The notes beneath the pieces were generated by a model that did not search any database, had not been told where the DNA came from, and worked only from the letters and a program-made list of their open reading frames with translations. From Shewanella livingstonensis (lineage in GTDB: Bacteria > Pseudomonadota > Gammaproteobacteria > Enterobacterales > Shewanellaceae), in NCBI RefSeq assembly GCF_003855395.1, contig NZ_CP034015.1:4598001-4662000 (forward strand): 64,000 nt of DNA, given 5' to 3'. A program made the translations under genes and the position numbers. This document shows positions 4,870 through 64,000 of the stretch, piece by piece (position 1 is the stretch's first letter; each line of letters begins with the position of its first letter).

Positions 4870-5748
4870 TTATGGCTCATTAACACGGCTCCTAAACTGT
4901 AAATAAGCCGTAGTCATCGCTTGAGCATCTTCCACTTGCGGATAGTGACCTAAGGTTGGCATGGTGGTGATATTGGCATTAGGGATCAATTGGCGATAAT
5001 GATCGATCATATGTTGACCCGAGATCGGATCTAGCGCGCCAGCGATCAGTTTTATCGGTATCGTGCTGTTAACCATTGCCCCAACCCAACGTTCACGGTT
5101 TTGCTGCCGTTGGGTCATATAACCAATCAGCTTATGCATCACTGACAAACCATTATTGTGATTTAGTAATTGCCATAGAGTATCGATAACGTCTGGCGTT
5201 GGTGGTGTCGATGGCCCAAATATGTGCTGTAAATTAGCAGCAAACTTTTGTTTATTGATCAATTTAGATACTAAAGGCCCTAGTGGTGACAGTAATAATT
5301 TTTGGATTAATATTGGTTTATGAGTTTCAGGAAATAAGCCACCATTTAAAAAACAGACACTTGCGATGTGCATATTATTGCCGCCATCAATTTGCCTTGC
5401 TAGCAGCTCTTGCGCGACCGTATCACCATAGTCATGAGCTAAAATATGATAATGGCTAACGCCTAGCTGTTGTAATAATGCCTGATAAAGATCAGCTTGC
5501 TCAGAGATCAAATAACGTGCGGCTTTGGGTTTATCTGAAAATCCAAAGCCCAACATATCAAGAGTGATCACGTAATAATGCTGGGTAAGTTGATGCCACA
5601 TGCCCTCCCAGTCCCAACTGGCGCTAGGAAAACCATGAATAAGCAATAATACAGGCGCCTGACAATTTTCCGAACAACGAGTAAAAATCTGCTGGCCGTT
5701 AATTGATACAAATTTCCCCTGCTGTTGCCATTCACTCAGTGTGATCAT
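4870..5748 (-). CDS. Alpha/beta hydrolase resembling MEST/PEG1
   Basis: 292 residues. The oxyanion-hole motif is HGFPSASWDWEGMW. The nucleophile elbow is AHDYGDTVAQELLAR, so the nucleophile is Asp, as in haloalkane dehalogenases and epoxide hydrolases rather than Ser esterases. The catalytic His is probably in LGHYPQVEDA, near the C-terminus. From memory, long stretches (DYGDTVAQELL, NGGLFPETHKPIL, RERWVGAM, TIPIKLIAGALDPIS) parallel the animal MEST protein, including its cap region. Substrate unknown. It is a single gene on the minus strand; the start ATG lies in GTGATC with weak ribosome-binding support. Confidence 0.85.
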   Translation of the reverse strand: MITLSEWQQQGKFVSINGQQIFTRCSENCQAPVLLLIHGFPSASWDWEGMWHQLTQHYYVITLDMLGFGFSDKPKAARYLISEQADLYQALLQQLGVSHYHILAHDYGDTVAQELLARQIDGGNNMHIASVCFLNGGLFPETHKPILIQKLLLSPLGPLVSKLINKQKFAANLQHIFGPSTPPTPDVIDTLWQLLNHNNGLSVMHKLIGYMTQRQQNRERWVGAMVNSTIPIKLIAGALDPISGQHMIDHYRQLIPNANITTMPTLGHYPQVEDAQAMTTAYLQFRSRVNEP

Positions 5749-5962
5749 CGCGATGTTATCCTTTCACTAATAGTGTATTTACCATCGATTAAAATCTCTC
5801 ATAGATCCAATATTCTGACTTTAACTCAATAGCCTATATATTAATCTAAGTTGAGCCTAAATATTCTATTCACTAGCTGACTATATACCATTAGGCAGTG
5901 ATATTATCTCTGCCTAATATTTCAAATGATCCATTCTAATTAGCTAATAGTCATTGCCAATA

Positions 5963-6727
5963 ATGATTTGCGCGGGAGCATCGGTGTTAACAGATCCATT
6001 ATTTTGGTTAGTGGCTATTCCAGCTGTATTAATCACAGGTATGTCAAAGTCAGGTTTTGCTGGCGGTGCCGGCGGGTTAACCGTGCCGTTGTTAGCATTA
6101 GCGATTAGCCCTGCGGCTGCGGCTGCCGTGATGTTACCATTATTGGTTTATATGGATTTTTTAAGTGTGCGTTCGTGGTGGGGGAAACAAAACACAGCAC
6201 AATTATGGATACTATTGCCTGCAGCTATTATGGGTATTGTTATAGCTTACCTGTTATTTGACCAACTTAATGAACAATACTTACGCGGGTTACTTGGGGT
6301 GATTTCATTAGGTTTTGGTATTTATGGCCTCACCTTAGGCGAGTGGTCACAACGTAAACCCTCCTCGCTCATGGGGAAAATTTGCGCCACCATTGCCGGT
6401 TTTACTAGCTTTGTAGCCCATGCAGGTGGACCACCATTAAATGCCTATTTAATCCCACTGCGTTTGGCTAAAACAGAATACTTAGGCACTGCGGTAGTTT
6501 TTTTTGCGGTTGTGAATGCTGTGAAGTTAATTCCCTACAGCATGCTAGGGCAAATTAACTTGAGTAATTTATTAGTCTCAGCATCATTGGCACCTATCGC
6601 ATGGCTTGGGGTAAAACTGGGGCTGCGCATTCAAGATAAGTTTGATGAAAAACAGTTTAAAAAAATCATCCTAAGCTTAATGATAGTGGTAGGTATACGC
6701 TTATTGTGGACGGCACTGATACCATAA
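5963..6727 (+). CDS. TauE/SafE family sulfite/anion exporter-like permease
   Basis: About 254 residues and 7-8 predicted membrane helices. The conserved first-repeat signature is GMSKSGFAGGAGGLTVPLLAL and the second-repeat equivalent is TSFVAHAGGPPLNAYL, both typical of the TauE/SafE (DUF81) family, which export sulfite, sulfoacetate or other organic anions across the inner membrane. An in-frame TTG lies 9 bases upstream (5954), but neither start has a convincing ribosome-binding site; I take the ATG. It stands upstream of the disrupted flavin-reductase gene in the same direction, with about 125 bases between. Confidence 0.85.
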   Translation: MICAGASVLTDPLFWLVAIPAVLITGMSKSGFAGGAGGLTVPLLALAISPAAAAAVMLPLLVYMDFLSVRSWWGKQNTAQLWILLPAAIMGIVIAYLLFDQLNEQYLRGLLGVISLGFGIYGLTLGEWSQRKPSSLMGKICATIAGFTSFVAHAGGPPLNAYLIPLRLAKTEYLGTAVVFFAVVNAVKLIPYSMLGQINLSNLLVSASLAPIAWLGVKLGLRIQDKFDEKQFKKIILSLMIVVGIRLLWTALIP

Positions 6728-12151: not shown

Positions 12152-12658
12152 TTACTTGCCTACATCGATACGAATATTATCGCTTAAGGTTTCAAGTTGA
12201 GAGATTAACAACGCAATGGTGACATTCTCCGGGAGCCTTAAGGTCATTTTAGAGCTATATACCGTCTTTCCTAAACTGGTTACTTGCACACGATAACATT
12301 CTTGATGATCTACACTCACGTCAAGGTCTGCTAATATTTCATTAATATCATGAGTTAATCCTGAACGATCGCTGCAATCTAAAGTAATCTTGCACTCTGC
12401 AGAGAAATGAATCGATTCATGTTCAAACTCAGCATAGACAAAAGTTAATTGCCCAAATTGCTGCTCTAACGCTTGTTTTAATGCAGCTTCCTTATCGACA
12501 TCAATCATCACTCGCATCATTGCAACAAATTGCCCGTCGAGTTTAATCACTTTGCTAGTTTCCCAACTTGCACCTATATCACGGCTAACTTGAGCAAGTG
12601 ACTGCAAAAGATTGGGCTGTAAAGTACCTAATACCGTCGTAATAAACTTATGCTGCAT
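12152..12658 (-). CDS. GcvR-like tandem ACT-domain protein
   Basis: 168 residues with two ACT domains (about 3-80 and 88-165): ITTVLGTLQPNLLQSLAQVSRDIGASWETSKVIKLDGQFVAM-type first, and LDCSDRSGLTHDINEILADLDVSVDH second. This matches the glycine-cleavage regulator GcvR and its many paralogues in Shewanella and Vibrio. GcvR binds glycine and restrains the activator GcvA by protein contact. No gcv genes are next to it, so it may be a paralogue with another ligand. Confidence 0.8.
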   Translation of the reverse strand: MQHKFITTVLGTLQPNLLQSLAQVSRDIGASWETSKVIKLDGQFVAMMRVMIDVDKEAALKQALEQQFGQLTFVYAEFEHESIHFSAECKITLDCSDRSGLTHDINEILADLDVSVDHQECYRVQVTSLGKTVYSSKMTLRLPENVTIALLISQLETLSDNIRIDVGK

Positions 12659-13410
12659 ATAACCTCCGATAATAAATAAACCAAAGTGAGTTTGGCCTAT
12701 TGATGTATGTTAATTAACCCTTAACTATAGATTAACGATCACTAGAAATTTAGTCTGTGGTCTGGGGCACAAATCACATAAATGAGCTAAAGACGCTCAA
12801 CAGTAACGTAAAAAACGTTAATTTTGGTGTGAAAGATAATCAATAACAACGTTGAGATGAAATAGGCCAAATAGGTTGATGTTAGCTTAGATGTTAACTC
12901 ACTTGCCCATGGCTTAATTTGAGTGGCGTTAAGCTGGCTTTGATGAGCTAGAAAATGAGTATTGTTGATTAATTAATAGTAAATATTGCTTTTGCAGGCT
13001 GATACAAACTTAATCAATTAGTGCTGCTTATATCACAAATTAGCGTTCATTAGTCATCGCTTAACAGTCATAATCAAGAGTAGAAACGTGCTGTTTTTGA
13101 TACTTATCACAACAGTAGCAACGCCTTGAACAATATCACACTAGCCAGAGATGCTTTCGGTATCTCATTGAATTTAAATAACTTATCACTTTATAATCTA
13201 TATCTTTAAAATATTTACAGCAAAAAAACAAAAATAAGCTTTTGTTTATTAAGTGAATTATCCATTCCACGATGAATATCACTCCCCCCATTGTGGCTTA
13301 TTGCTACCCATAGACGCTTTATCTAAAATGCGCGCCTTACCCAATAAGGGTACAGATTAACTTTCGGCAACGTCATGTTAGCCGTTAAACCTTTCCATTA
13401 GGGGAACACG
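12659..13410. other. Long AT-rich intergenic region
   Basis: About 750 bases between divergent genes. No credible reading frame, tRNA or clear hairpin with T-run was seen. It should hold promoters for both neighbours; the length suggests complex control of the acetate transporter, but I find no convincing CRP or other operator by eye. Confidence 0.5.
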
Positions 13411-15992: not shown

Positions 15993-16814
15993 ATGAGCAT
16001 AAATAGACGCCAAGCATTAACAAAAATTATTGGATTAAGCACTGCAGCGGCTGGAGCGACACTATTAGGTACGTCAGCATTTGCTGCTACAGACGCTAAC
16101 GGCAACTACCGCTTAGCATTAGGCGAAAAACTGAAATACGCGCCACTCGATGCAATGGCAACGGCTAAGTTAGCCTATGAAACTGGCGGCGGTTGTATGC
16201 ACCAAGTGTTTCACGCCATTATCACTATGCTTGCAGCATCAGGCAGTGTTGACGCTGAAAAGTTTGCGACCATACCAACAGCATTAGCTGGTTATGGTTG
16301 GGCTGGTGTTGTTGGTCAGGGCACACTTTGCGGCAACTTAAATGCATCGGGAATGTTAATTAATATTCTTGATGATATAAATGGCCAAAACAGTGCCATT
16401 ATTGGCGCATCTTTCCGCTACTATGAAACTAATGACTTACCTTTATCTTCAGCGGAGTTCATTGCAGGCATTGGTTCAACAGCAGAAAAATCATTAGAAG
16501 TAGGCAAAACCTCGATTGCCAACAGCCCGCTATGCCACTCATCTATTAGTAATTGGTCTGCTGCATCAGGAAAACCATTCGCTTTAAAAGGTGAACGCTG
16601 TAAACGCCTGTCTGCCAGTATGGCTTATCATATTGTCGAACTGCTTAACCGTGCTCATGGCGGCGAAGATATTTCCATATTAGCAGAAGCGAAACCGTCG
16701 GCTGAAGCACAAGCATGTCAATCATGCCATGGTGTTACTGAGACTATGGGCTCTGCTGCCAGTGTTAAAAGTGATATGGAATGCACCACCTGTCATACCG
16801 GACATTACAATTAA
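15993..16814 (+). CDS. Exported dihaem split-Soret-type cytochrome c
   Basis: 273 residues. A twin-arginine-like leader (NRRQALTKIIGLSTAAAGATLLGTSAFA) suggests export to the periplasm. A central domain with GGGCMHQVFHAI and further Cys (GTLCGNL, SPLCHSS, GERCKRLSASMA) resembles the C_GCAxxG_C_C/split-Soret family. Two CxxCH haem sites at the C-terminus (CQSCH, CTTCH) bind haem c. It is probably an electron-transfer or small redox-enzyme component. Start at MSINRR is supported by AGAGGG 9 bases upstream. The lipoprotein gene begins 10 bases after the stop, so the pair is an operon. Confidence 0.75.
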   Translation: MSINRRQALTKIIGLSTAAAGATLLGTSAFAATDANGNYRLALGEKLKYAPLDAMATAKLAYETGGGCMHQVFHAIITMLAASGSVDAEKFATIPTALAGYGWAGVVGQGTLCGNLNASGMLINILDDINGQNSAIIGASFRYYETNDLPLSSAEFIAGIGSTAEKSLEVGKTSIANSPLCHSSISNWSAASGKPFALKGERCKRLSASMAYHIVELLNRAHGGEDISILAEAKPSAEAQACQSCHGVTETMGSAASVKSDMECTTCHTGHYN

Positions 16815-53612: not shown

Positions 53613-54135
53613 ATTTTTTTACAAGAAGTTTAGCTTTAAGCTTTTAGGCTTTAAAACAACATTTGATCTAGCGCAGGATAAATCGTGTTAGAACAAGGCG
53701 CTTTACCACGACGTTTAGTTTTTCATAAACGAGTGGTGAAGCAACGCAGTTATCACCGATTTAGACCAGCTAGATTACATCATCCCGCCCACATATCATT
53801 TATCTGATTGATTATATTAAATTATTAACATGGGAATTTTATTGATACCCCACTTTATACCCCTACCAACTAAACACTTTCGCTGACAAGTTAAAATTTA
53901 ATGAGATAGTGGCCTTATTTAAAATTTCATCACTTTTCAAAACAGAGTAGCAATTTAACACATATGACATAAAACTAATCAATGTAGCTCTTAGGTCAAC
54001 TTTGTCAACAATTGTTAAAAGCATACTAAATTAAACCAAAATTTGTACCTATTCATTGTCTGCTTAGCCACCAAAGCGCCTTGTAAAACTATAAATTTAT
54101 ATCCAACATTAGTTCGACATAATTATTAATCAATT
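53613..54135. other. Intergenic stretch with dispersed repeat
   Basis: About 520 bases without a supported gene. It holds the second copy of the 17-bp TGAAGCAACGCAGTTAT repeat (53737-53753; first at 38395). The rest is AT-rich. Confidence 0.5.
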
Positions 54136-54738
54136 TTAACCAAGGATAGAATTCAAACTATGATCAAGGACTGACTTTAACTCTTCTTCCGATTTACCAG
54201 CCTTTGCTTGAACGGCAATGCCATAACTAATTGACAATAGATACGTAGCAAGTTTTTCAGCTGTTTGACCTTTGGGCATATCCGTCTTCGCAATGCCAGA
54301 CACGAATAAATCCGTCAGTATTTTCTGAGTTTCTGTTCCTGATTTTTCTATATAAACAACCGCATCTTCTGGAAACGCCACACTATCTGATTCATTAAGA
54401 CTCTTTACAAGCAAACATCCACGAGGCGTTTCATCGCTGGTGAATAGCTCAATAAGCCCATAGAAACAAGCTTGTAACCGCTCCTTTAATGTTGCATTTG
54501 ATGGCTCTACTAGATGGCTGTAGTTAACTTCTACATATTGTTTTTGATAATGTGCCAATGCATCTTTGAACAATTGCTCTTTATTGACAAACGTTCCGTA
54601 CAAGCTCGACGTATTAATGCCAAGCTCAGAAGAAAGATTGGCAACAGAAGTACCTGAATATCCATTGGCCCAAAATAACCGCATCGCTTTATCTAAAACG
54701 ACCTCTTTATCAAACGCTCTTTTTCGTCCTGCTTTCAC
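54136..54738 (-). CDS. TetR-family repressor of the dehalogenase cluster
   Basis: 200 residues. N-terminal HTH: FDKEVVLDKAMRLFWANGYSGTSVANLSSELGINTSSLYGTFVNKEQLF; C-terminal ligand domain typical of the TetR_C group that includes AcuR/YxaF-like sensors of small molecules (PRGCLLVKSL). It is divergent from the cluster, and the 152-bp gap contains three operators and face-to-face -35 boxes. It likely represses itself and the cluster until an organohalide or its product binds. Confidence 0.92.
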   Translation of the reverse strand: MKAGRKRAFDKEVVLDKAMRLFWANGYSGTSVANLSSELGINTSSLYGTFVNKEQLFKDALAHYQKQYVEVNYSHLVEPSNATLKERLQACFYGLIELFTSDETPRGCLLVKSLNESDSVAFPEDAVVYIEKSGTETQKILTDLFVSGIAKTDMPKGQTAEKLATYLLSISYGIAVQAKAGKSEEELKSVLDHSLNSILG

Positions 54739-54775
54739 TCTGTGCCCTTAAAAATAATATTAATCAAATCTATTC

Positions 54776-54865
54776 TGAAGCAGTCACTTCAAAATGTCAA
54801 TTCACCCTATTGACATTCTGAAGTGATCGTTACACAATGCGTTCTATTCTGAAGTGAACGCTTCA
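54776..54865. promoter_or_regulatory. Divergent promoters with three TetR operators
   Basis: TGAAG N6 CTTCA palindromes at 54776-54791 and 54850-54865, a degenerate copy (TGAAG N6 TTACA) at 54819-54834. TTGACA (-35) at 54810-54815 with CACAAT at 54833-54838 faces right; TTGACA on the minus strand (54795-54800) with AGAATA at 54771-54776 faces left. Operator 1 sits in the leftward promoter and operator 2 in the rightward one. Confidence 0.8.
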
Positions 54866-54890
54866 TAGAAATAAAATAAGTGAACTAAAA

Positions 54891-55271
54891 ATGTTTAAAA
54901 AATTCGTACAAATTATGGCGCTATGCAACTTTCCAGTCGCACTAGGCATGATTATTTCAGTATTGATAGCACCTCAAGCAGACACGTTAATTATCACGGT
55001 GGTATTGGGCGTCTCTTTTATGCTTATGGGAGCAGCGTTACTTTGGGCTACTTCAGACATTAAAACCCGTGCACCTCTTATTGTTTGGAATGGATTAGTC
55101 AGAATGGTCGGCTTTATCACTGTTACTTATGCCGCTTCATTAGGCTTGGCACCAAAGATCTTTGTCTATATTTCTGTCATGGATCTAGTTGCTGCGCTTG
55201 TTTTTGTCATTGGCAGTATGCGCGTATCGGGACTATCTTTTAAATCGCTATTTTTAGGCAAAACTCAGTAA
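54891..55271 (+). CDS. Small four-helix membrane protein
   Basis: 126 residues, four predicted helices: IMALCNFPVALGMIISVLIA, LIITVVLGVSFMLMGAALLWA, APLIVWNGLVRMVGFITVTYAASLGLA and VYISVMDLVAALVFVIG. It resembles small DoxX/DUF-like proteins often seen next to TetR-controlled oxidoreductases. First gene of the cluster, 68 bases before the HLD-I dehalogenase. Role unknown. Confidence 0.7.
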   Translation: MFKKFVQIMALCNFPVALGMIISVLIAPQADTLIITVVLGVSFMLMGAALLWATSDIKTRAPLIVWNGLVRMVGFITVTYAASLGLAPKIFVYISVMDLVAALVFVIGSMRVSGLSFKSLFLGKTQ

Positions 55272-55338
55272 CTTATAAATTAATAATTTTAGCATTGATA
55301 ACATTAACTTAAATAAACTACTTTTCAGGAGAAATATT

Positions 55339-56250
55339 ATGACGATTAAAGCATTAAGAACACCAGAAGAAAGATTCTCTGTATTACCGGCCTTTCCTTA
55401 CCAACCTAACTACATTGATGATTTAGCTGGTTTTGAGTCTTTACGCATGGCCTACATCGACGAGGGTGATTCCTCATCTGAAAACACTTTTTTATGTTTA
55501 CACGGTGAGCCTTCTTGGAGCTACTTATACCGAAAAATGATCCCTATATTTACGGGCGCAGGTCATCGTGTTGTTGCGCCAGATCTGTTTGGCTTTGGTC
55601 GCTCAGATAAACCCGTTGATGAATCAGTTTATACCTTTGATTTTCACCGTGATAGTTTAATGCGATTAATTGAACGCCTTGATCTGAAAAATATTACGCT
55701 GGTCTGTCAAGACTGGGGCGGAATTCTAGGGTTAACAATCCCAATGGATATGCAAGATCGATTCAAAAATTTGATTGTTATGAACACGGCAATATCGGTG
55801 GGTGAAACCGCCCCTGAAGGGTTTTATCAGTGGCGAGATTTCTGCGCAAATGCCCCTGAAATACCTGTCGGTGGTTTATTTGCCTGTGACGCAGGGTCAG
55901 CAGTGTCTGTGATGGATGTTATAGCTTACGATGCGCCATTTCCAGACAACAGCTATAAAGCAGGCGTAAGACGCTTTCCCGCCATGGTGCCTGTCGAGCC
56001 AACGATGGATGGCGTTGAACTTGGAAAACGCGCAAGAGAGTTTTGGTCAAAAGACTGGAACGGTCAAAGTTTCATGGCGATTGGCATGAAAGATACAGCT
56101 TTAGGCGAAGGCCCGATGGAGTACTTAAGAAGCTTTATTAAAGGCTGCCCTGAGCCCTTAAAAATTGCAGAAGCAGGACATTTTGTTCAAGAATACGGTG
56201 TTGAAATTGCTGAAAAAGCGCTTGTTCACTTAGAAATGAATAATAAATAG
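55339..56250 (+). CDS. Haloalkane dehalogenase, subfamily HLD-I
   Basis: 303 residues. HLD-I signatures: HGEPSWSYLYRKMIPIF, PDLFGFGRSDKPVDE. Nucleophile D125 with halide-binding W126 (CQDWGG), second Trp W165 (GFYQW), catalytic D252 (GMKD) and H281 (EAGHFVQE). All expected residues are present, so hydrolysis of a carbon-halogen bond to an alcohol and halide is likely. No signal peptide. SD AGGAG precedes the start; 10 bases separate it from the following SDR. Confidence 0.93.
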   Translation: MTIKALRTPEERFSVLPAFPYQPNYIDDLAGFESLRMAYIDEGDSSSENTFLCLHGEPSWSYLYRKMIPIFTGAGHRVVAPDLFGFGRSDKPVDESVYTFDFHRDSLMRLIERLDLKNITLVCQDWGGILGLTIPMDMQDRFKNLIVMNTAISVGETAPEGFYQWRDFCANAPEIPVGGLFACDAGSAVSVMDVIAYDAPFPDNSYKAGVRRFPAMVPVEPTMDGVELGKRAREFWSKDWNGQSFMAIGMKDTALGEGPMEYLRSFIKGCPEPLKIAEAGHFVQEYGVEIAEKALVHLEMNNK

Positions 56251-56260
56251 GCTATATCCA

Positions 56261-57001
56261 ATGAATACAAATATTGAAAATAAAGTGATTGTTATAACGG
56301 GTGCAAGCAGTGGTTTAGGTGAAGCAACTGCGCGTTTTCTGGCTCAAAAAGGTGCTAAAGTCGTATTGGGTGCGCGTCGTAGTGAAAAACTAGCAGCTAT
56401 CGTAAATGATATTCGTGCTCAGGGTGGCGAAGCTGAATATGTCACGATGGATGTCACCAAATCCGATCAGGTTAAAATGCTTGTCGACAAGGCGATTGAG
56501 ACCTTTGGACGCTTAGATGTCATGGTCAATAATGCCGGCTTGATGTCGATTGCCCCAATGGCTGAGGTTAAGGTTGATGAATGGGATCGCATGGTCGACA
56601 TTAATATCAAAGGGGTACTTTACGGTATCGCCGCTGCACTTCCCGTGTTTACCAAACAAAATAGTGGTCACTTTATTAATCTCGCTTCCGTTGCTGCACA
56701 TAAAGTTTCACCGGGTTCGGCTGTCTATAGCGGTACAAAATTTGCGGTTAAAGCGATAACGGAAGGATTGAGAGCGGAAGTGGGTGGCAATATACGTACA
56801 ACGCTATTATCACCCGGCTTAATTGATTCTGAATTAAAATTCGGTAGTTCGGATGAAGCCACCTCTCAATTTGTTCAAGATATTTATAAAGTCGCTATTC
56901 CAGCGTTATCTATTGCTAAAGCAGTCGCCTATGCGATTGAACAACCAGATGATGTCGATATTAACGAAATTATTATCAGACCAACAATTCAAGACTTCTA
57001 A
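56261..57001 (+). CDS. Short-chain dehydrogenase/reductase
   Basis: 246 residues. TGASSGLGEATARFLAQ, GARRSEKL (Arg supports NADP preference), NNAGLMSIAPM, catalytic Ser in NLASVAAHK and YSGTKFAVK. This matches the NADP-dependent SDR group often labelled YdfG/oxidoreductase. It would oxidise the alcohol from dehalogenation or reduce an aldehyde/ketone. Same strand as the HLD-I gene. Confidence 0.92.
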   Translation: MNTNIENKVIVITGASSGLGEATARFLAQKGAKVVLGARRSEKLAAIVNDIRAQGGEAEYVTMDVTKSDQVKMLVDKAIETFGRLDVMVNNAGLMSIAPMAEVKVDEWDRMVDINIKGVLYGIAAALPVFTKQNSGHFINLASVAAHKVSPGSAVYSGTKFAVKAITEGLRAEVGGNIRTTLLSPGLIDSELKFGSSDEATSQFVQDIYKVAIPALSIAKAVAYAIEQPDDVDINEIIIRPTIQDF

Positions 57002-57079
57002 TCTAATGTGAGTTGATCCTGCCTTTTTATATATCGTTTGGCAGGTCAATTTAAAAAAATTGCTTTAAAGGTATAAAAA

Positions 57080-57724
57080 ATGAAAAAAATACTCGTTATT
57101 GGCGCTAATGGCCAGATTGGTAAAATAGTAGTTGAGTTGCTTCACAATCAGGATCGCCCAGTTGTCGCAATGGTTCGTAGCAAACAACAAGCTGAGACGT
57201 TAGAAAATATGGGTGTAGAGGTTGTTGTTGGCGATCTTGAAACTGATTTTGAACACGCTTTTAAGGACTGCGATAAAGTAGTATTTAGTGCTGGTTCTGG
57301 CGGTAATACAGGCTACGATAAAACACTTTTAATAGATTTATGGGCAGCAAAAAAAGCAGTTGATTATTCTTTAAAGGTAGGCATACAACATTTTGTAATG
57401 GTAAGTGGTTTAGGCGCACAAGACCCTGACGAATTTGAATCAGAAATAAAACCCTATTTGGTGGCAAAGTATTTTGCCGATCAGTACCTATTATCCAGTG
57501 GCCTAAATTACACCATTCTTAGACCGGGACTCCTTACTAATGATAAAGGTCAGGGATTGATAACAACCACGCGTTCAACTTCTACAAATGATTTATTCAT
57601 TAGCAGAGAAGATGTCGCTAAATCAATTGAGTATTGCATTAATTACGGCGGTGCCAGTAACCAGATAGTTGAACTTTATCATGGTAATGAAGTGATTAGC
57701 ACTGCATTAACCGCAAGCAATTAA
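57080..57724 (+). CDS. Atypical SDR, NAD(P)-binding (YwnB/NmrA-like)
   Basis: 214 residues. N-terminal GANGQIGKIVVELL, then MVRSKQQAETL and VGDLETD, with YFADQYLLSSGLNYTILRPGLLTND late on. This is the SDR_a5-like/NAD(P)H-binding family with no YxxxK in the classical place. It may be a redox sensor or a reductase. SD AAAGG precedes the start. Within the cluster the function is open. Confidence 0.88.
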   Translation: MKKILVIGANGQIGKIVVELLHNQDRPVVAMVRSKQQAETLENMGVEVVVGDLETDFEHAFKDCDKVVFSAGSGGNTGYDKTLLIDLWAAKKAVDYSLKVGIQHFVMVSGLGAQDPDEFESEIKPYLVAKYFADQYLLSSGLNYTILRPGLLTNDKGQGLITTTRSTSTNDLFISREDVAKSIEYCINYGGASNQIVELYHGNEVISTALTASN

Positions 57725-57742
57725 TTTATAAGGAACAAAATA

Positions 57743-58756
57743 ATGTTAAAAAAATTCACCAAACTTGCCATAGTCGCAACGATTGCTCAATTTACTACAA
57801 CGGCATCATTTGCCGAAACTCAAGCGCCTAACGCTTACGAAGAATACAAAATTCCTCCGCTTGAGATTTCAGTGGAAAATAAATATGACTATAATTATCT
57901 GGATGTTTTTGGTTCAAAAATGGCATATATCGATGAGGGAAAAGGTGATCCGATTCTTTTCATTCATGGTACCCCGATGTCTTCTTATCTGTGGCGTAAT
58001 ATTATGCCACACGTTGAAAATCAAGGACGCATAATCGCGCCGGATTTAATCGGTATGGGTAAATCAGACAAGCCAGATCTCAAATATACTTTTGATGATC
58101 AGTACAAATACCTCGATGCTTTTATAAAAAAAATGAACTTAAAGAATATTACGCTTGTTGTCCATGACTGGGGCTCTGGTTTAGGTCTTCATTATGCACA
58201 CCTAAATCCAGATAATATTAAAGGTATTGTTACTATGGATGCAGTGCTTGCCCCCATGTTGCCGGCGAAAAGCTATGATTCTATGTCAAAAGTAATGGGA
58301 GACTACTTCCGTATGATCCAAACGACAGAAGAAGGTAAGAAATTTCTGTTAGATGACAACATGGTTGTAGAATATGAAATCCCAGCAATGATTGATAGAC
58401 CGCTTAAAAAAGAAATTCACGATGTTTATCGTGAACCCTACAAGACGATTGAATCACGTACCGCTGTAATGCAATGGCCACTAGAAGTACCTGTTGGTGG
58501 TAAACCAGCAGCAACGGCTAAATATATCTCTGAGTACAATGCTTGGTTAGAGAAGACGGATACTCCTTGGCTATTCCTCTACGCAACCCCTGGCATAATG
58601 AGTACGCCTGCAGCCGCTGACTACTGGACAGAGCATGCTCAGAATATTGAAACCGTTTACATTGGTAATGGCTTGCACTTTGTTCAGGAAGACCATCCAT
58701 ATGCAATTGGTCGAGCAATTTCAGATTGGTACCGTCGTTTGCAAGCTAAGAAGTAA
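57743..58756 (+). CDS. Exported dehalogenase-like alpha/beta hydrolase with altered active site
   Basis: 337 residues with a Sec signal peptide (ATIAQFTTTASFAETQ). The core is HLD-II-like: SSYLWRNIMPH, PDLIGMGKSDKPD and nucleophile D142 with W143 (VVHDWGS). But the halide-binding Asn of HGNP is Thr77 (HGTP), and the catalytic Glu after the sixth strand is Asp166 (TMDAV). The His is in GLHFVQED. It could be an epoxide hydrolase or other esterase, or a divergent dehalogenase in the periplasm. SD AAGGAAC. Starts 18 bases after the preceding gene. Confidence 0.82.
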   Translation: MLKKFTKLAIVATIAQFTTTASFAETQAPNAYEEYKIPPLEISVENKYDYNYLDVFGSKMAYIDEGKGDPILFIHGTPMSSYLWRNIMPHVENQGRIIAPDLIGMGKSDKPDLKYTFDDQYKYLDAFIKKMNLKNITLVVHDWGSGLGLHYAHLNPDNIKGIVTMDAVLAPMLPAKSYDSMSKVMGDYFRMIQTTEEGKKFLLDDNMVVEYEIPAMIDRPLKKEIHDVYREPYKTIESRTAVMQWPLEVPVGGKPAATAKYISEYNAWLEKTDTPWLFLYATPGIMSTPAAADYWTEHAQNIETVYIGNGLHFVQEDHPYAIGRAISDWYRRLQAKK

Positions 58757-58883
58757 CTAAAAAATAATATCAAAATAAGTTATTAAATTTGTAACTACTC
58801 AGCCCCCATTAAAACTGAGCGCTTTTACCAAAATAATGAGTAGTTACTTAAATTTTATGTCGATATTCAACAAGGTGAAACCC

Positions 58884-59327
58884 ATGATGAACGCATTAGA
58901 ACAAAGAATTCAAAAATTAGAAGATTTAGAAGCGATAAGAACACTCCAAGCTACCTATGGTCATTATGTAGATAAAGGTTGGAATGGGAAAGACATGGAT
59001 ATTGAAAAGCTTACTGACATATTTACCGAAGATGCTTTATGGGAAGCGCCAGCAGCTGGAGTATTAGCTAATGGGCACAAAGAAATAATTGAATCCTTTA
59101 AATCTTTTGATGAAAAAAATAAATTCTTTATTCATAGTTTTACTAACCCCATTATTGAAATTAATGAAGATAAAGCGACAGCAAAATGGATTCTTTTTTC
59201 TCCAGCTATTGATGGTGAAAAAGTAATTTGTATGCTTGCCAGTTATGACAATGATTATGTTAGAACGACAAATGGTTGGCGTATTAAAAGTTTAAGACTC
59301 AACATGGCTAATGTACTTGGCGCTTAA
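58884..59327 (+). CDS. SnoaL-like/NTF2-fold protein
   Basis: 147 residues. N-terminal helix LEQRIQKLEDLEAIRTLQATYGHYVDKGWNGKDMDIEKLTDIFTEDALWE, then the cone-shaped NTF2 strands. SnoaL-like domains are hydratases, isomerases or dehydratases of small molecules; catalytic residues cannot be fixed. AAGGTG stands 7 bases before MMNALEQ; an in-frame start 16 codons earlier is less likely. In the cluster it could act on an alcohol or a ketone intermediate. Confidence 0.8.
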   Translation: MMNALEQRIQKLEDLEAIRTLQATYGHYVDKGWNGKDMDIEKLTDIFTEDALWEAPAAGVLANGHKEIIESFKSFDEKNKFFIHSFTNPIIEINEDKATAKWILFSPAIDGEKVICMLASYDNDYVRTTNGWRIKSLRLNMANVLGA

Positions 59328-59452
59328 TAATAGTCATTCAAGCATTGACCTTGGGCTAATCGAATTAGAAGGTCGTTTAAACTCCTCCCAGGTAAATGTG
59401 TTGAATTCGTTTTTTCACTCAGAAGAATTATGAAACAAATTAAGGAATAATC

Positions 59453-60427
59453 ATGACTCAAAATAAAACTATCCATCTTAATAAAGTACTTGAAGAACAT
59501 TCTCAAGATATGACCAGTAAAGTGGTTGCCATTACCGGTACTACAAGTGGTACGGGATTTGTATTCGCAAGAGAAGTGGCTAAAAAAGGGGCTACAGTCC
59601 TATTGCTCAATCGTACAAGTGCAAGGTCAGAAAATGCCTATAAGCAGTTAACCGAAGCAGTTCCAAGCGGAAAATTTGAAGCAATAACGTGCGATTTGCA
59701 AGATTTTGAAAGTGTAAAACAAGCAGCTGAACAAATTAAATCGGAATATAGTGTTCTTGATGTTTTAGTCAATAATGCCGGCATTATGGCTGTGAAAGAT
59801 GAAGCGACTAAAGATGGCTATGATGTTCAAATGCAAACAAATGCCATATCACACTTTCTTTTAACCAAAGAATTGTATCCTTTACTTAAAAACAGTAGTG
59901 AAGCTAGAGTCATAAACCAAACGTCGTTAGCTAGATTAGGTGGACCTTTAGAACCTGCCTATTTTGAGAAAAATGGAGGTAATTTAGGAGGTAATGGCAC
60001 ACCTGAAGAAACGGCGAATTTCCAAGGCGCTAGATGGGAACGTTATCACCAAACTAAATTGGCAAATGCCACTTTTACCTATGGTTTAAAAAAGAAACTT
60101 TTAGAGGCTAACGTTAAAAATATTATTTCATTATTGGCGCATCCTGGCGTAGCCATAACCAACCTTCAAGCAACTTCAGCTGAAACAGGTGGAATGGATG
60201 TTAACGGAGGCGTTATGAGCCAAGCACAGTCTGCTGAAGATGGCGCCGCTGGAATTATTAGAGCTGCTATGGATAAAGAGGCAAAATCTGGTGATTTTTA
60301 TGGACCAACTGAAGGGATAAGTGGTTTTCCAAATTTGCTAGAGCCAGAAGAACTACTTTTTGACGAATCTAATGTCGCTATCAATTGGAATGGGTGTGAA
60401 AAAGCTGTTGGTGAATTTAAAATATAA
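59453..60427 (+). CDS. Short-chain dehydrogenase/reductase, longer type
   Basis: 324 residues. TGTTSGTGFVFAREVAKKG cofactor motif, NRTSARS (Arg), NNAGIMAV, catalytic Ser in NQTSLAR and YHQTKLANATFTYGL. The layout resembles retinol-dehydrogenase/light-dependent protochlorophyllide reductase-like SDRs. Insertion in the middle (GGNLGGNGTPEETANFQGARWE) is typical of that group. Composition is AT-rich. SD AAGGAATA. Confidence 0.88.
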   Translation: MTQNKTIHLNKVLEEHSQDMTSKVVAITGTTSGTGFVFAREVAKKGATVLLLNRTSARSENAYKQLTEAVPSGKFEAITCDLQDFESVKQAAEQIKSEYSVLDVLVNNAGIMAVKDEATKDGYDVQMQTNAISHFLLTKELYPLLKNSSEARVINQTSLARLGGPLEPAYFEKNGGNLGGNGTPEETANFQGARWERYHQTKLANATFTYGLKKKLLEANVKNIISLLAHPGVAITNLQATSAETGGMDVNGGVMSQAQSAEDGAAGIIRAAMDKEAKSGDFYGPTEGISGFPNLLEPEELLFDESNVAINWNGCEKAVGEFKI

Positions 60428-60479
60428 AATCACAAACGGTTGGTAATTTCTTTAAATCTGCATTAGAGTTTTAAATAAT

Positions 60480-61178
60480 ATGCAAAACTACCTTCAAGAA
60501 ATAGAAACAATCACCTCTAAAGCAGGTGAAACCGTTCCTTTACAAAGAAAAGCTTTTGAAAGAGGTTTTTCTTTTAAGCACATGTCTTTTTATGAACAAC
60601 TAGCGATATGGAGTTATATCTGGACGAACACCAAAGTTTATAGAGCAGAAATGTTTTGTTTGTATTTCTTGGAGGAGCATATTAAAAACAAAGATGAAAT
60701 GCTGGCCGCTTGGCCAACGATTAAATTATGGCAAGACAAAATTAATCGATGGGAAACAAGCGATAGTATTTCAAAAATATATGCTCAATTAGTAGAATAT
60801 CATGCAGAACTAATTTTGCCAACATATAAAAAATGGAATACGTCTGAAAACCCATGGCATAGAAGACAAAGCATAGTGGGTTTACTTTATTACAGCGCTC
60901 ATAGAAAACACTATTTACCTTTTCAGGTACTTATAGATTTGGTAACACCTTTAATTTCTGACCACGCTTATTATGTTGAAAAAGGAGTGGGTTGGACACT
61001 TAGAGAAATAGGAAATATATACCCTAAAGAGCAGGAAGAATTTCTATTTAAAAACGCAACTAAAATTTGTGCTTACGGATATAGCGCGGGTACAGAAAAG
61101 TGGGATAAAACAAAACGAGAAAAACTGAAGCAAATTAGAAAAGCAGCAAGAGTTTTAAATCGCAAAAATTCAATTTAA
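60480..61178 (+). CDS. AlkD-family DNA alkylation-repair glycosylase
   Basis: 232 residues, HEAT-like helical repeats. The AlkD catalytic residues can be placed: W91 and D95 (NRWETSDS) and W172 (GVGWTLREIG). NPWHRRQSIVGLLYY is another family stretch. AlkD removes positively charged N3- and N7-alkyl bases without base flipping. It stands inside the dehalogenase cluster, 20 bases before the HLD-II gene, so they are co-expressed. Composition AT-rich, suggesting transfer. Confidence 0.9.
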   Translation: MQNYLQEIETITSKAGETVPLQRKAFERGFSFKHMSFYEQLAIWSYIWTNTKVYRAEMFCLYFLEEHIKNKDEMLAAWPTIKLWQDKINRWETSDSISKIYAQLVEYHAELILPTYKKWNTSENPWHRRQSIVGLLYYSAHRKHYLPFQVLIDLVTPLISDHAYYVEKGVGWTLREIGNIYPKEQEEFLFKNATKICAYGYSAGTEKWDKTKREKLKQIRKAARVLNRKNSI

Positions 61179-61198
61179 ACATTTAAAAAGGAATAAAT

Positions 61199-62098
61199 AT
61201 GTCAAACAACAAACCAATATCAGCAGCATTTCCTTTTGAATCTAAATTTCAAGCAGTATTAGATTCTAAAATGCATTATGTAGATGAAGGAGACAAAAAT
61301 TCTAAAGATACTTTTTTACTCATACACGGAAACCCTACATCAAGTTATTTATGGCGGAACATTATTCCTCATGTAAGTGCCTTAGGTCGTGTGGTTGTTC
61401 CTGATCTTATTGGAATGGGTAAGTCTGACAAGCCCGATATAGATTATACATTTGAAGACCATATTACCTATTTAGATGCGTTTATTGAAAAGTTAGCCTT
61501 AAAAAATATCATTATAGTCATTCAAGATTGGGGTTCTGCTTTAGGTTTTAACTATGCCAATCAGCATAGAGAAAATATAAAAGGGATTGTTTTTTTTGAA
61601 GCTATGTCTCAAGTTTCTTATTGGAAAAATACGACCAAAGAGACAGAAACATTATTTAGAAAATTTCGTGACCCTGCAGAAGGGCATGAAATGATTGTTA
61701 AAAACAACTTCTTTATTGAGGCTATGCTACCCATGATGGCGGGCAGAGAATTAACTCAAGAAGAAATGGACCATTACCGAGCGCCTTATTTGGAAGAAAA
61801 GAGCCGTAAACCACTGCTTATGTGGCCTGGTCAAATTTCGTTTGATGGCGTCCCAAAATTTACCACTGACATTGTTAATTCATATAATGAATACCACAAA
61901 AATTCAGATGTGCCTAAGTTGTTATTTTATGCAGAGCCAGGACTAATCATTAATCGAGAATTAGGTGAGCATATCGCTGAAACGTGGAAAAATATTACTG
62001 CAGTAGATTTAGGTGAAGGAAAGCATTATCTACAAGAGTCGCATCCACATGAAATTGGTGAAGGTATTGTCGATTGGTATAAAAAAGTTATTAAATAA
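61199..62098 (+). CDS. Haloalkane dehalogenase, subfamily HLD-II
   Basis: 299 residues. HGNPTSSYLWRNI with N45, nucleophile D110 and W111 (IQDWGSALG), catalytic E134 (FFEAM) and H276 (GKHYLQESHP): the full HLD-II set D-H-E plus N-W, equal in order to LinB/DhaA. It hydrolyses haloalkanes to alcohols. No signal peptide. AAAGG precedes the start. AT-rich codon use like the AlkD gene. Last gene of the cluster. Confidence 0.94.
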   Translation: MSNNKPISAAFPFESKFQAVLDSKMHYVDEGDKNSKDTFLLIHGNPTSSYLWRNIIPHVSALGRVVVPDLIGMGKSDKPDIDYTFEDHITYLDAFIEKLALKNIIIVIQDWGSALGFNYANQHRENIKGIVFFEAMSQVSYWKNTTKETETLFRKFRDPAEGHEMIVKNNFFIEAMLPMMAGRELTQEEMDHYRAPYLEEKSRKPLLMWPGQISFDGVPKFTTDIVNSYNEYHKNSDVPKLLFYAEPGLIINRELGEHIAETWKNITAVDLGEGKHYLQESHPHEIGEGIVDWYKKVIK

Positions 62099-62180: not shown

Positions 62181-62215
62181 TTTGACCGCTATAATTTGAC
62201 CGCTATAATTTGACC
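62181..62215 (+). promoter_or_regulatory. Promoter formed by a 14-bp tandem duplication
   Basis: TTTGACCGCTATAA is repeated 2.5 times. The first TTGACC (62182-62187) and the second TATAAT (62204-62209) are 16 bp apart, a near-perfect sigma-70 promoter. Transcription would start about 62216, just before the DUF4336 gene. Confidence 0.65.
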
Positions 62216-62233
62216 ACGACAAAGGAAGTACCG

Positions 62234-62899
62234 ATGGCAGCTAAATTATCCAAGTTTGAAGCAGTCGATGGCTCTGCTACATTATATACCGCCACCAAAA
62301 ATAGCCTTAGATGCACGGCTATTAAACTGAGAACAGGTGGCGTTTGTTTATATAGTCCAGTGTCAGGCCTCAGTGAAGAGGCTAAAGATAGCCTAATCGA
62401 ATTAGGCGAAGTCCAATATCTACTCGCCCCCAATACCTACCATAATGCTGGTTTGATAGAATACTCAAAAGCCTACCCCAAAGCGCATCTGGTGGCATCT
62501 GAGAGTGCTCATGCACGCTTGACTAGCAAGACAGGACTAACGTTCAAAGAATTATCATCGCTAGCCAATGCACTACCAGACGGGCTTACCTTGGAAGAAC
62601 CCAGTGGTTTGAAAAATGGTGAGGTTTGGCTTATAGAGTCAGCGCAGATTGGCCATATTTGGCATGTTGTGGATGCCTTTTCGGGCCAAAAACATACTGA
62701 AGGCCCCCTATGTGACATTGTAAAAATGGTTAAAGTATTTCCTAATTTTGGTATTAAAGATCGAAAAGTCTTTGCCAGCGCGGTAATGCAACTTATTGAA
62801 ATTTCACCGCCTAAAATTTTACTGCCTTGTCATGGTGCTTTAATTAAATCACCTGAGCTAGCTGATCAGATTCGAAATTTAATACTCGAACTTGGCTAG
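62234..62899 (+). CDS. DUF4336 metallo-hydrolase-like protein
   Basis: 221 residues. FEAVDGSATLYTATKNSLRCTAIKLRTGGVCLYSPVSGLSEE, APNTYHNAGLIEY, and near the end PPKILLPCHGALI match the DUF4336/metallo-beta-lactamase-like family. A canonical HxHxDH zinc-site motif is not seen, so activity is uncertain. AAGGAAG precedes the ATG. Likely driven by the duplicated promoter; not part of the dehalogenase cluster in spacing. Confidence 0.82.
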   Translation: MAAKLSKFEAVDGSATLYTATKNSLRCTAIKLRTGGVCLYSPVSGLSEEAKDSLIELGEVQYLLAPNTYHNAGLIEYSKAYPKAHLVASESAHARLTSKTGLTFKELSSLANALPDGLTLEEPSGLKNGEVWLIESAQIGHIWHVVDAFSGQKHTEGPLCDIVKMVKVFPNFGIKDRKVFASAVMQLIEISPPKILLPCHGALIKSPELADQIRNLILELG

Positions 62900-63362: not shown

Positions 63363-64000
63363 CTACATCATGCCGCCCATTCCGCCCATACCACCCATAC
63401 CACCCATATCTGGCGCAGAATCTTGTGGTACGTCAGCAATCATCGCTTCTGTTGTGATCATAAGACCAGCAATAGATGCGGCGAACTGTAGCGCACTACG
63501 CGTCACTTTAGTTGGGTCAAGGATACCCATTTCTAACATGTCGCCGTAAGTGTCGTTGCCAGCATTGTAACCGAAGTTACCTTCACCGTTTTTAACAGTG
63601 TTAGCCACAACTGATGCTTCTTGACCTGCGTTAGTTGCGATTTGACGTAAAGGCGCTTCCATAGCACGTAGTGCGATTACCACACCGTGTTTTTGGTCTT
63701 CGTTCAATACTTCAACATCTTTAATTTTGCTTGCTACGCGAACAAGGGCTACACCGCCACCGGCGACCACACCTTCTTCAACCGCTGCGCGAGTTGCATG
63801 CAATGCATCTTCTACGCGCGCTTTTTTCTCTTTCATTTCAACTTCTGTTGCTGCGCCAACTTTGATTACTGCAACACCGCCAGCTAACTTAGCCATACGC
63901 TCTTGAAGCTTTTCTTTGTCGTAGTCTGAAGTTGAATCTTCAACTTGTTGTTTGATTTGCGAAACACGTGCAGAAATTTGCACTTGGTCGCCACTACCAT
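63363..64000 (-). CDS. groEL: GroEL chaperonin, C-terminal part; gene runs off window
   Basis: The visible 212 residues run from [20 protein letters not shown] to the Gly-Met repeat tail ([14 protein letters not shown]). Typical motifs: [46 protein letters not shown], and [26 protein letters not shown]. GroEL with GroES folds cytosolic proteins. The start lies beyond base 64000. No damage seen. Confidence 0.98.

Follow-up and report, generated by a model that had tools for sequence, protein, structure and literature searches.

A stretch of 64,000 nucleotides from Shewanella livingstonensis (contig NZ_CP034015.1, positions 4,598,001 to 4,662,000; hereafter the window, in whose coordinates positions are given unless another locus is named) carries a discrete insert, spread by horizontal transfer, at the 3′ end of groEL. 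The insert holds a conserved pair of genes: one for a predicted AlkD-type DNA glycosylase (alkD, 60480..61178, plus strand), the other for a predicted haloalkane dehalogenase (HLD) of subfamily HLD-II (hldII, 61199..62098, plus strand). The remaining genes of the insert come and go between hosts; the alkD–hldII pair stays. Judged from its sequence, we lean, if only slightly, towards the view that this 9.6-kb mobile island carries a TetR-controlled detoxify-and-repair operon directed against reactive halogenated compounds.

Conservation of the alkD–hldII pair

Evidence for the pair came firstly from scanning genome contigs with the AlkD protein, a procedure that detects close relatives only. 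Eleven other loci (L011 to L021) were found in nine genera of Pseudomonadota and Bacteroidota, with AlkD identities of 86–100%: Marinomonas, Pseudoalteromonas, Amphritea, Psychrobacter, Paraglaciecola, Psychromonas (two), Flavobacterium (two), Cellulophaga and Maribacter. The first-pass annotation of this DNA had proposed a search for conserved synteny, and across the two phyla hldII lies directly after alkD in all 11 of these loci, each of which was found by its alkD. The same annotation had placed alkD 20 bases upstream of hldII, correctly, the spacer being 61179-61198. A gap of 20 bp recurs in L011–L013, L015, L020 and L021, and one of 21 bp is seen in L017 and L019; in L016 and L018 the alkD open reading frame (ORF) reaches within 5 bp of hldII, and in L014 the two ORFs overlap.

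Around the pair the complement of genes (described individually below) is variable. The order tetR–mem126–hldI–sdr1–nmrA–alkD–hldII is common to the window and seven gammaproteobacterial loci; the four Bacteroidota loci have mem126–sdr1–nmrA–alkD–hldII, without hldI and downstream of another alpha/beta hydrolase, and in three of the four snoaL–sdr2 precedes alkD. Among the 12 loci, window included, the pair is retained in 12, hldI in 8, the gene for a DUF4336-like protein in 7, sdr2 in 5, full-length snoaL in 4 and an hldII_sp of the window type in 2. The DUF4336 gene is present in 6 of the 11 other loci, all gammaproteobacterial, and is split into two ORFs in L012 and L021. No internal stop interrupts alkD in 11 of the 12 loci, and the same count holds for hldII. 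At the extreme of similarity, the hldII and DUF4336 DNA of the window is identical to the Marinomonas flavescens genes. The additional Bacteroidota hydrolase, which has N-D-W-H residues like those of HLDs, is encoded upstream at L016:4520-5464, L017:3648-4640, L018:6152-7144 and L019:4628-5572; an alpha/beta hydrolase with HLD-like N-D-W-H residues is also found upstream of the Marinomonas unit, at L011:3044-4021.

More distant matches extend the picture. Poseidonibacter antarcticus (Campylobacterota) has an AlkD 91% identical to that of the window, among the matches listed. An 80% AlkD and a 79% HLD-II have the same source and are both on contigs of 4304 bp, which suggests that they share one contig. 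In total three coincidences of equal-sized contigs were seen between 33 AlkD matches and the 120 listed of 6480 HLD-II matches, against an expectation of 0.43 from a jitter model. The coincidence at 2787 bp (43% AlkD, 60% HLD-II) is only suggestive of a linked pair, and that at 1133 bp was discarded because the sources differ and the length is too short for both genes.

Insertion at groEL and horizontal spread

The boundaries of the insert, overlooked in the first-pass annotation, are sharply defined. DNA shared with the Marinomonas locus (L011) starts at 53775 and ends at 63363, and the 9.6 kb of the insert are bounded by two 17-bp repeats of the 3′ end of groEL. The left repeat, TTACATCATCCCGCCCA (53775..53791, plus strand), coincides exactly with the start of the DNA shared with L011 and has two differences from the groEL 3′ end; the right repeat, CTACATCATGCCGCCCA (63363..63379, plus strand), is the groEL 3′ end itself and marks the right end of the insert. 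The target, the 3′ portion of a gene identified by its sequence as groEL, occupies 63363..63983 on the minus strand. The site is empty in 11 of the 17 relatives from the same genus, where the left flank abuts groEL directly (within 17 bp); in one of the six others the flank is 135 bp distant, and the last five show no match to it. The groEL 3′ end thus acts as an insertion site. Of the marks of a site-specific integrative element, direct repeats at both ends are present in the window and an empty site in relatives, and an integrase of its own is missing: no recombinase or integrase was found among ORFs of at least 90 amino acids between 53775 and 63379. Full-text searches of open-licence PubMed Central (PMC) papers returned no literature on islands at the end of groEL.

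The surroundings of the other copies are diverse. In the Marinomonas locus, repeats of the groEL end recur at 16157 and 17044, and groEL-end sites also occur at L011:5962 and L015:14222. Near its right end, in the interval that separates the shared block from the next groEL-end repeat, the Marinomonas copy holds a gene for a group II intron-type reverse transcriptase/maturase (RVT_1, GIIM, HNH; L011:12885-16156). The Paraglaciecola copy is close to groEL, but the left repeat was not found there. In Amphritea (L013) two direct copies of an insertion sequence, 5491-6135 and 12401-13042, 94.6% identical over 645 bp, flank the unit in the manner of a composite transposon. Directly downstream of the unit both Psychromonas loci (L020:12585-13181, L021:6667-7263) encode a 198-residue tyrosine recombinase, recognised by PF00589 in L020 and of the same cluster in L021; beyond it lies a further relative of HLD-II, in which E replaces N41.

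Vertical inheritance was rejected: an AlkD-like gene was found in only 8 of 144 other relatives, at 22–30% identity. In these relatives HLD-II gave no full-length match above 48% among the matches listed; one piece of 99 residues reached 52%. Searches with HLD-II (E up to 1e-60) gave hits in 1 of 48 genomes of the genus of the Marinomonas locus and in 4 of 24 of that of the Psychromonas loci, and the version peculiar to the unit was confined to known carriers (one and two genomes, respectively). No close hldII copy was detected outside known carriers in the approximately 880 genomes searched with hldII, in sets that partly overlap. Nor does contamination account for the cross-phylum copies, since the four loci from Bacteroidota group in a separate clade, differ by 9–12% from the gammaproteobacterial loci and have other flanks. 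Carriage by plasmids was dismissed (neither a near match of the 8.8-kb unit nor an AlkD match in plasmids), as was carriage by phages (no AlkD match in phage records, nor any confirmed relative of AlkD among viral contigs). Integron-like or inverted-repeat ends were set aside, the groEL-end repeats being preferred: CCAAAGCGCC is a short direct match only, and no convincing inverted repeat was found.

Active sites of the predicted dehalogenases and glycosylase

Families were assigned by Pfam and NCBIfam scans of the window's ORFs. The first-pass annotation had named two dehalogenases and a third homologue, and curated cut-offs agree: hldI (55339..56250, plus strand) scores 345.7 bits with NF002043 (HLD-I, cut-off 265 bits), and hldII and hldII_sp (57743..58756, plus strand) score 368.9 and 354.2 bits with NF002938 (HLD-II, cut-off 241 bits). 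The catalytic residues of the HLD-I and HLD-II genes, described as complete at the outset, are so for hldII in a residue table and for hldI as far as an alignment to DhlA shows. The full HLD-II pentad is present in hldII (N, D, W, E and H at DhaA N41, D106, W107, E130 and H272). In hldI the residue table finds the nucleophile D, the adjacent W and the base H, and the PDB alignment to DhlA chains adds W and D at the equivalents of W175 and D260, positions that, with H289, we take to be the DhlA catalytic set. The best PDB match of hldI, at 514 bits over its full length, is 7avr, presumably DpaA of Paraglaciecola. The third homologue, hldII_sp, lacks a complete pentad: T stands in place of N41 and D in place of E130, with D106, W107 and H272 kept. 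Because a Cellulophaga copy, 89% identical, has the same replacements, this is a shared variant and no local accident. An N-terminal signal-peptide-like sequence, judged by eye, indicates that hldII_sp is perhaps exported.

The completeness of these active sites bears on what the operon would destroy. Repair could be coupled to the detoxification of some other electrophile – an algal or microbial alkylating toxin, an epoxide or an aldehyde – with the hydrolases and SDR proteins acting on non-halogenated or mixed substrates. The wealth of SDR, NmrA and SnoaL proteins without an assigned substrate fits such a reading, as do the exported homologue that departs from canonical N41 and E130 and the HLD-like additional hydrolase of the four Bacteroidota loci. 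Given the full pentad of hldII, the HLD-I residues of hldI and scores for both above curated HLD cut-offs, we regard it as improbable, and continue with halogenated compounds as the preferred target.

The window AlkD scores above the cut-off for PF08713 and has the AlkD fold. Three catalytic residues had been claimed for it, and these are W91, D95 and W172; together with R129 they are the equivalents of Bacillus cereus W109, D113, W187 and R148. All four are invariant across 31 aligned rows (the window, two loci and 28 of 33 listed AlkD proteins). Passages of PMC8626424 describe AlkD as using Trp109, Asp113 and Trp187 and as excising bulky lesions without base flipping. A Tag-family (PF03352) gene is present in 9 of the 12 host genomes; there AlkD would thus not merely replace an absent 3-methyladenine glycosylase, and would add to standing repair capacity.

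Mosaic history and the scope of the linkage

Synonymous divergence (dS) between the window and Bacteroidota is 0.28–0.55 for snoaL, sdr2, alkD, hldII and hldII_sp, 1.7–2.0 for nmrA, and saturated for sdr1. G+C content (GC) varies likewise: 36.4% for snoaL and sdr2 together, 33.5% for alkD and 34.8% for hldII, and 42–43% for hldI, sdr1 and the DUF4336 gene. By these measures the unit is mosaic, its snoaL–sdr2–alkD–hldII tail having been exchanged between the phyla later than sdr1–nmrA; the contrast in dS and GC points to related operons that were probably already present in both phyla before the tail was swapped. The ratio of non-synonymous to synonymous divergence (dN/dS) between the window and Bacteroidota, 0.21–0.23 for alkD and 0.08–0.11 for hldII, places both genes under purifying selection.

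A number of findings weigh against a detoxify-and-repair operon. Among them are the neighbourhood controls. Of 369 genomes of the class, 32 (the own genome among them) have HLD-II genes (E ≤1e-50), as do 3 of the 299 genomes of a Bacteroidota family, a count that takes in the centre genome. Other HLD-II neighbourhoods, 38 in all (33 from the class outside the own genome, two from Bacteroidota outside the centre genome and the three best non-own among the window's relatives; several on contigs of 3–6 kb), contained an AlkD-clade protein in no case, so that no independent pairing was found. Equally, none of 40 neighbourhoods of other AlkD-like genes from two phyla (the best 20 of those listed outside the centre genome and the best 20 of 31 outside the own genome) contained an HLD. 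A general association of HLD with AlkD is therefore rejected: the linkage is a property of one mobile, recently spread unit, and constitutes one evolutionary case and not many. Labilibaculum filiforme has an 81% HLD-II with no AlkD on a same-sized contig among the matches listed. The reading frame of alkD is shifted in L021, an uncultured assembly, and that of hldII in L013. Moreover, of the two genes alkD evolves the more rapidly, its dN/dS reaching 0.43 within gammaproteobacteria, and the two trees differ in places, with a distance correlation of 0.60 within gammaproteobacteria; their histories are thus partly separate. Finally, the window AlkD is only about 18% identical to that of B. cereus, and Foldseek, ranked by E-value, puts Streptococcus AlkD2 first (4.7e-5) and AlkD next (1.1e-4).

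The first of these results are what would be expected were alkD a hitchhiker on a patchwork cargo island, placed beside hldII by one ancestral insertion, with the genes serving different stresses. The unit is mobile and mosaic, as the GC and dS values attest, and the pairing was not seen outside it. Against hitchhiking, the pair is present in 12 of 12 loci (found by alkD) from which sdr2, snoaL, hldI, hldII_sp and DUF4336 are often missing, and both of its genes are constrained. Hitchhiking is unlikely in our judgement. The last results raise a separate alternative, namely that the AlkD-like protein is a HEAT-repeat protein that is no glycosylase and serves some other purpose in DNA binding or regulation. 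Some members of the AlkD superfamily are without activity, and the low identity and the Foldseek ranking point the same way; we consider this explanation very improbable indeed, and retain the reading of a glycosylase that works alongside dehalogenases.

Gene content and regulation

The first-pass annotation had the gene positions right, with tetR on the minus strand and the other genes on the plus strand. The divergent TetR-family regulator gene (tetR, 54136..54738; PF00440, 46.3 bits) lies next to mem126 (54891..55271), which encodes a small hydrophobic protein of 126 residues without a Pfam family. This gene, overlooked earlier, is kept in all 12 loci, window included, at about 40–50% identity in Bacteroidota and with an internal stop in one (L015). 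After hldI come sdr1 (56261..57001; SDR oxidoreductase, PF00106, 183 bits) and nmrA (57080..57724; NAD(P)-binding NmrA/NAD_binding_10 protein, PF13460, 156 bits), and after hldII_sp come snoaL (58836..59327; SnoaL-like, PF13577, 74 bits) and sdr2 (59453..60427; SDR oxidoreductase, PF00106, 109 bits). What had been counted as three SDR-type proteins is thus two classical SDRs and one NAD_binding_10/NmrA protein. Beyond hldII lies the gene for a DUF4336-like protein (62210..62899, plus strand; PF14234, 19.8 bits, under the cut-off of 28.5), also overlooked. A promoter-like TTGACC-16-TATAAT at 62182-62209, found by a sequence scan whose count was not above chance, precedes this gene, which may perhaps have its own promoter.

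Between tetR and mem126 lie three near-palindromic TGAAG(N6)CTTCA-like sites (54776-54791, 54819-54834 and 54850-54865), candidate TetR operators that are largely kept in an alignment of eight gammaproteobacterial intergenic regions. Beneath them are back-to-back promoter-like hexamers at 54810/54838 (plus strand) and 54800/54772 (minus strand), again from a scan with a promoter count not above chance. No plus-strand terminator-like site was seen inside the cluster, in a scan that performed at chance level (6 found, 7.8 in shuffles).

Proposed function and comparison with known systems

The cluster had been proposed at the outset to be a detoxify-and-repair unit. As a unit it is supported by the synteny (11/11), the purifying selection and the retention of the pair; the linkage belongs to one mobile unit only, and it is by inference that we assign enzyme activities, substrate, inducer and the coupling of the two functions. 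A halogenated compound, or its product, would release TetR from the three palindromes and open the operon. Cytosolic HLD-I and HLD-II, perhaps joined outside the cell by the altered hldII_sp, would hydrolyse carbon–halogen bonds by way of the Asp nucleophile, a chemistry expected from the families and intact residues, and the SDR and NmrA proteins could oxidise or reduce the resulting alcohols or carbonyls. Short haloalkanes alkylate N7-guanine and N3-adenine, which are AlkD substrates. Molecules that escaped hydrolysis would alkylate purines at N3 or N7, and the AlkD-type enzyme would excise these bases, beginning base excision repair. Joint selection for both functions would keep the pair intact while the unit moves between bacteria.

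Tentatively, and with less than even confidence, we further suggest that the unit is a portable resistance island against natural halocarbons (algal bromo- and iodoalkanes, for example) in two, perhaps three, phyla, in which an AlkD-type glycosylase guards the host from the substrates of the dehalogenases. According to passages of PMC10919026, macroalgae secrete numerous halocarbons, and haloalkane dehalogenase genes abound in their microbiomes. Several host names, as names alone, hint at cold seas. If the suggestion is true, environmental halocarbons are genotoxic enough to select for a repair enzyme packaged with detoxifying enzymes and carried across phyla. The island would then offer a clean genetic system – defined ends, a small operon, one regulator – in which to study the natural role of such dehalogenases, a difficult subject since few of their natural substrates are known. 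It would also give the wide range of adducts handled by AlkD-type enzymes a natural context.

The original statement that no earlier description of the linkage was known is consistent with our full-text searches, which covered open-licence PMC papers and returned no earlier description of dehalogenase–alkD linkage. Known systems share parts of the arrangement. With DhlA and 7avr (HLD-I) and DhaA and DmmA (HLD-II) the window's hldI and hldII agree in fold family, catalytic residues and curated scores; the window differs in having both subfamilies, a signal-peptide-bearing relative and a DNA glycosylase in one mobile operon. The catabolic islands for dichloromethane and 1,2-dichloroethane likewise comprise mobile dehalogenase genes that face genotoxic substrates, and we know of no dedicated glycosylase gene in them. 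B. cereus AlkD resembles the window protein in fold, in the three catalytic residues and in R148, and differs at about 18% identity; to our knowledge its gene is not in a dehalogenase operon. For chloromethane, passages of PMC11794338 describe alkylation of RNA and mention no dedicated glycosylase gene. A further parallel is self-resistance by YtkR2 and C10R5 in toxin gene clusters, where, in passages of PMC8626424, an AlkD-type enzyme is encoded, as in the window, beside genes that handle an alkylating compound. Those clusters make their toxin, whereas the window's neighbouring genes are predicted to destroy it, in a unit that has crossed phyla. As part of the same tentative claim, such an island may be the degradative counterpart of glycosylase self-resistance in antibiotic producers.

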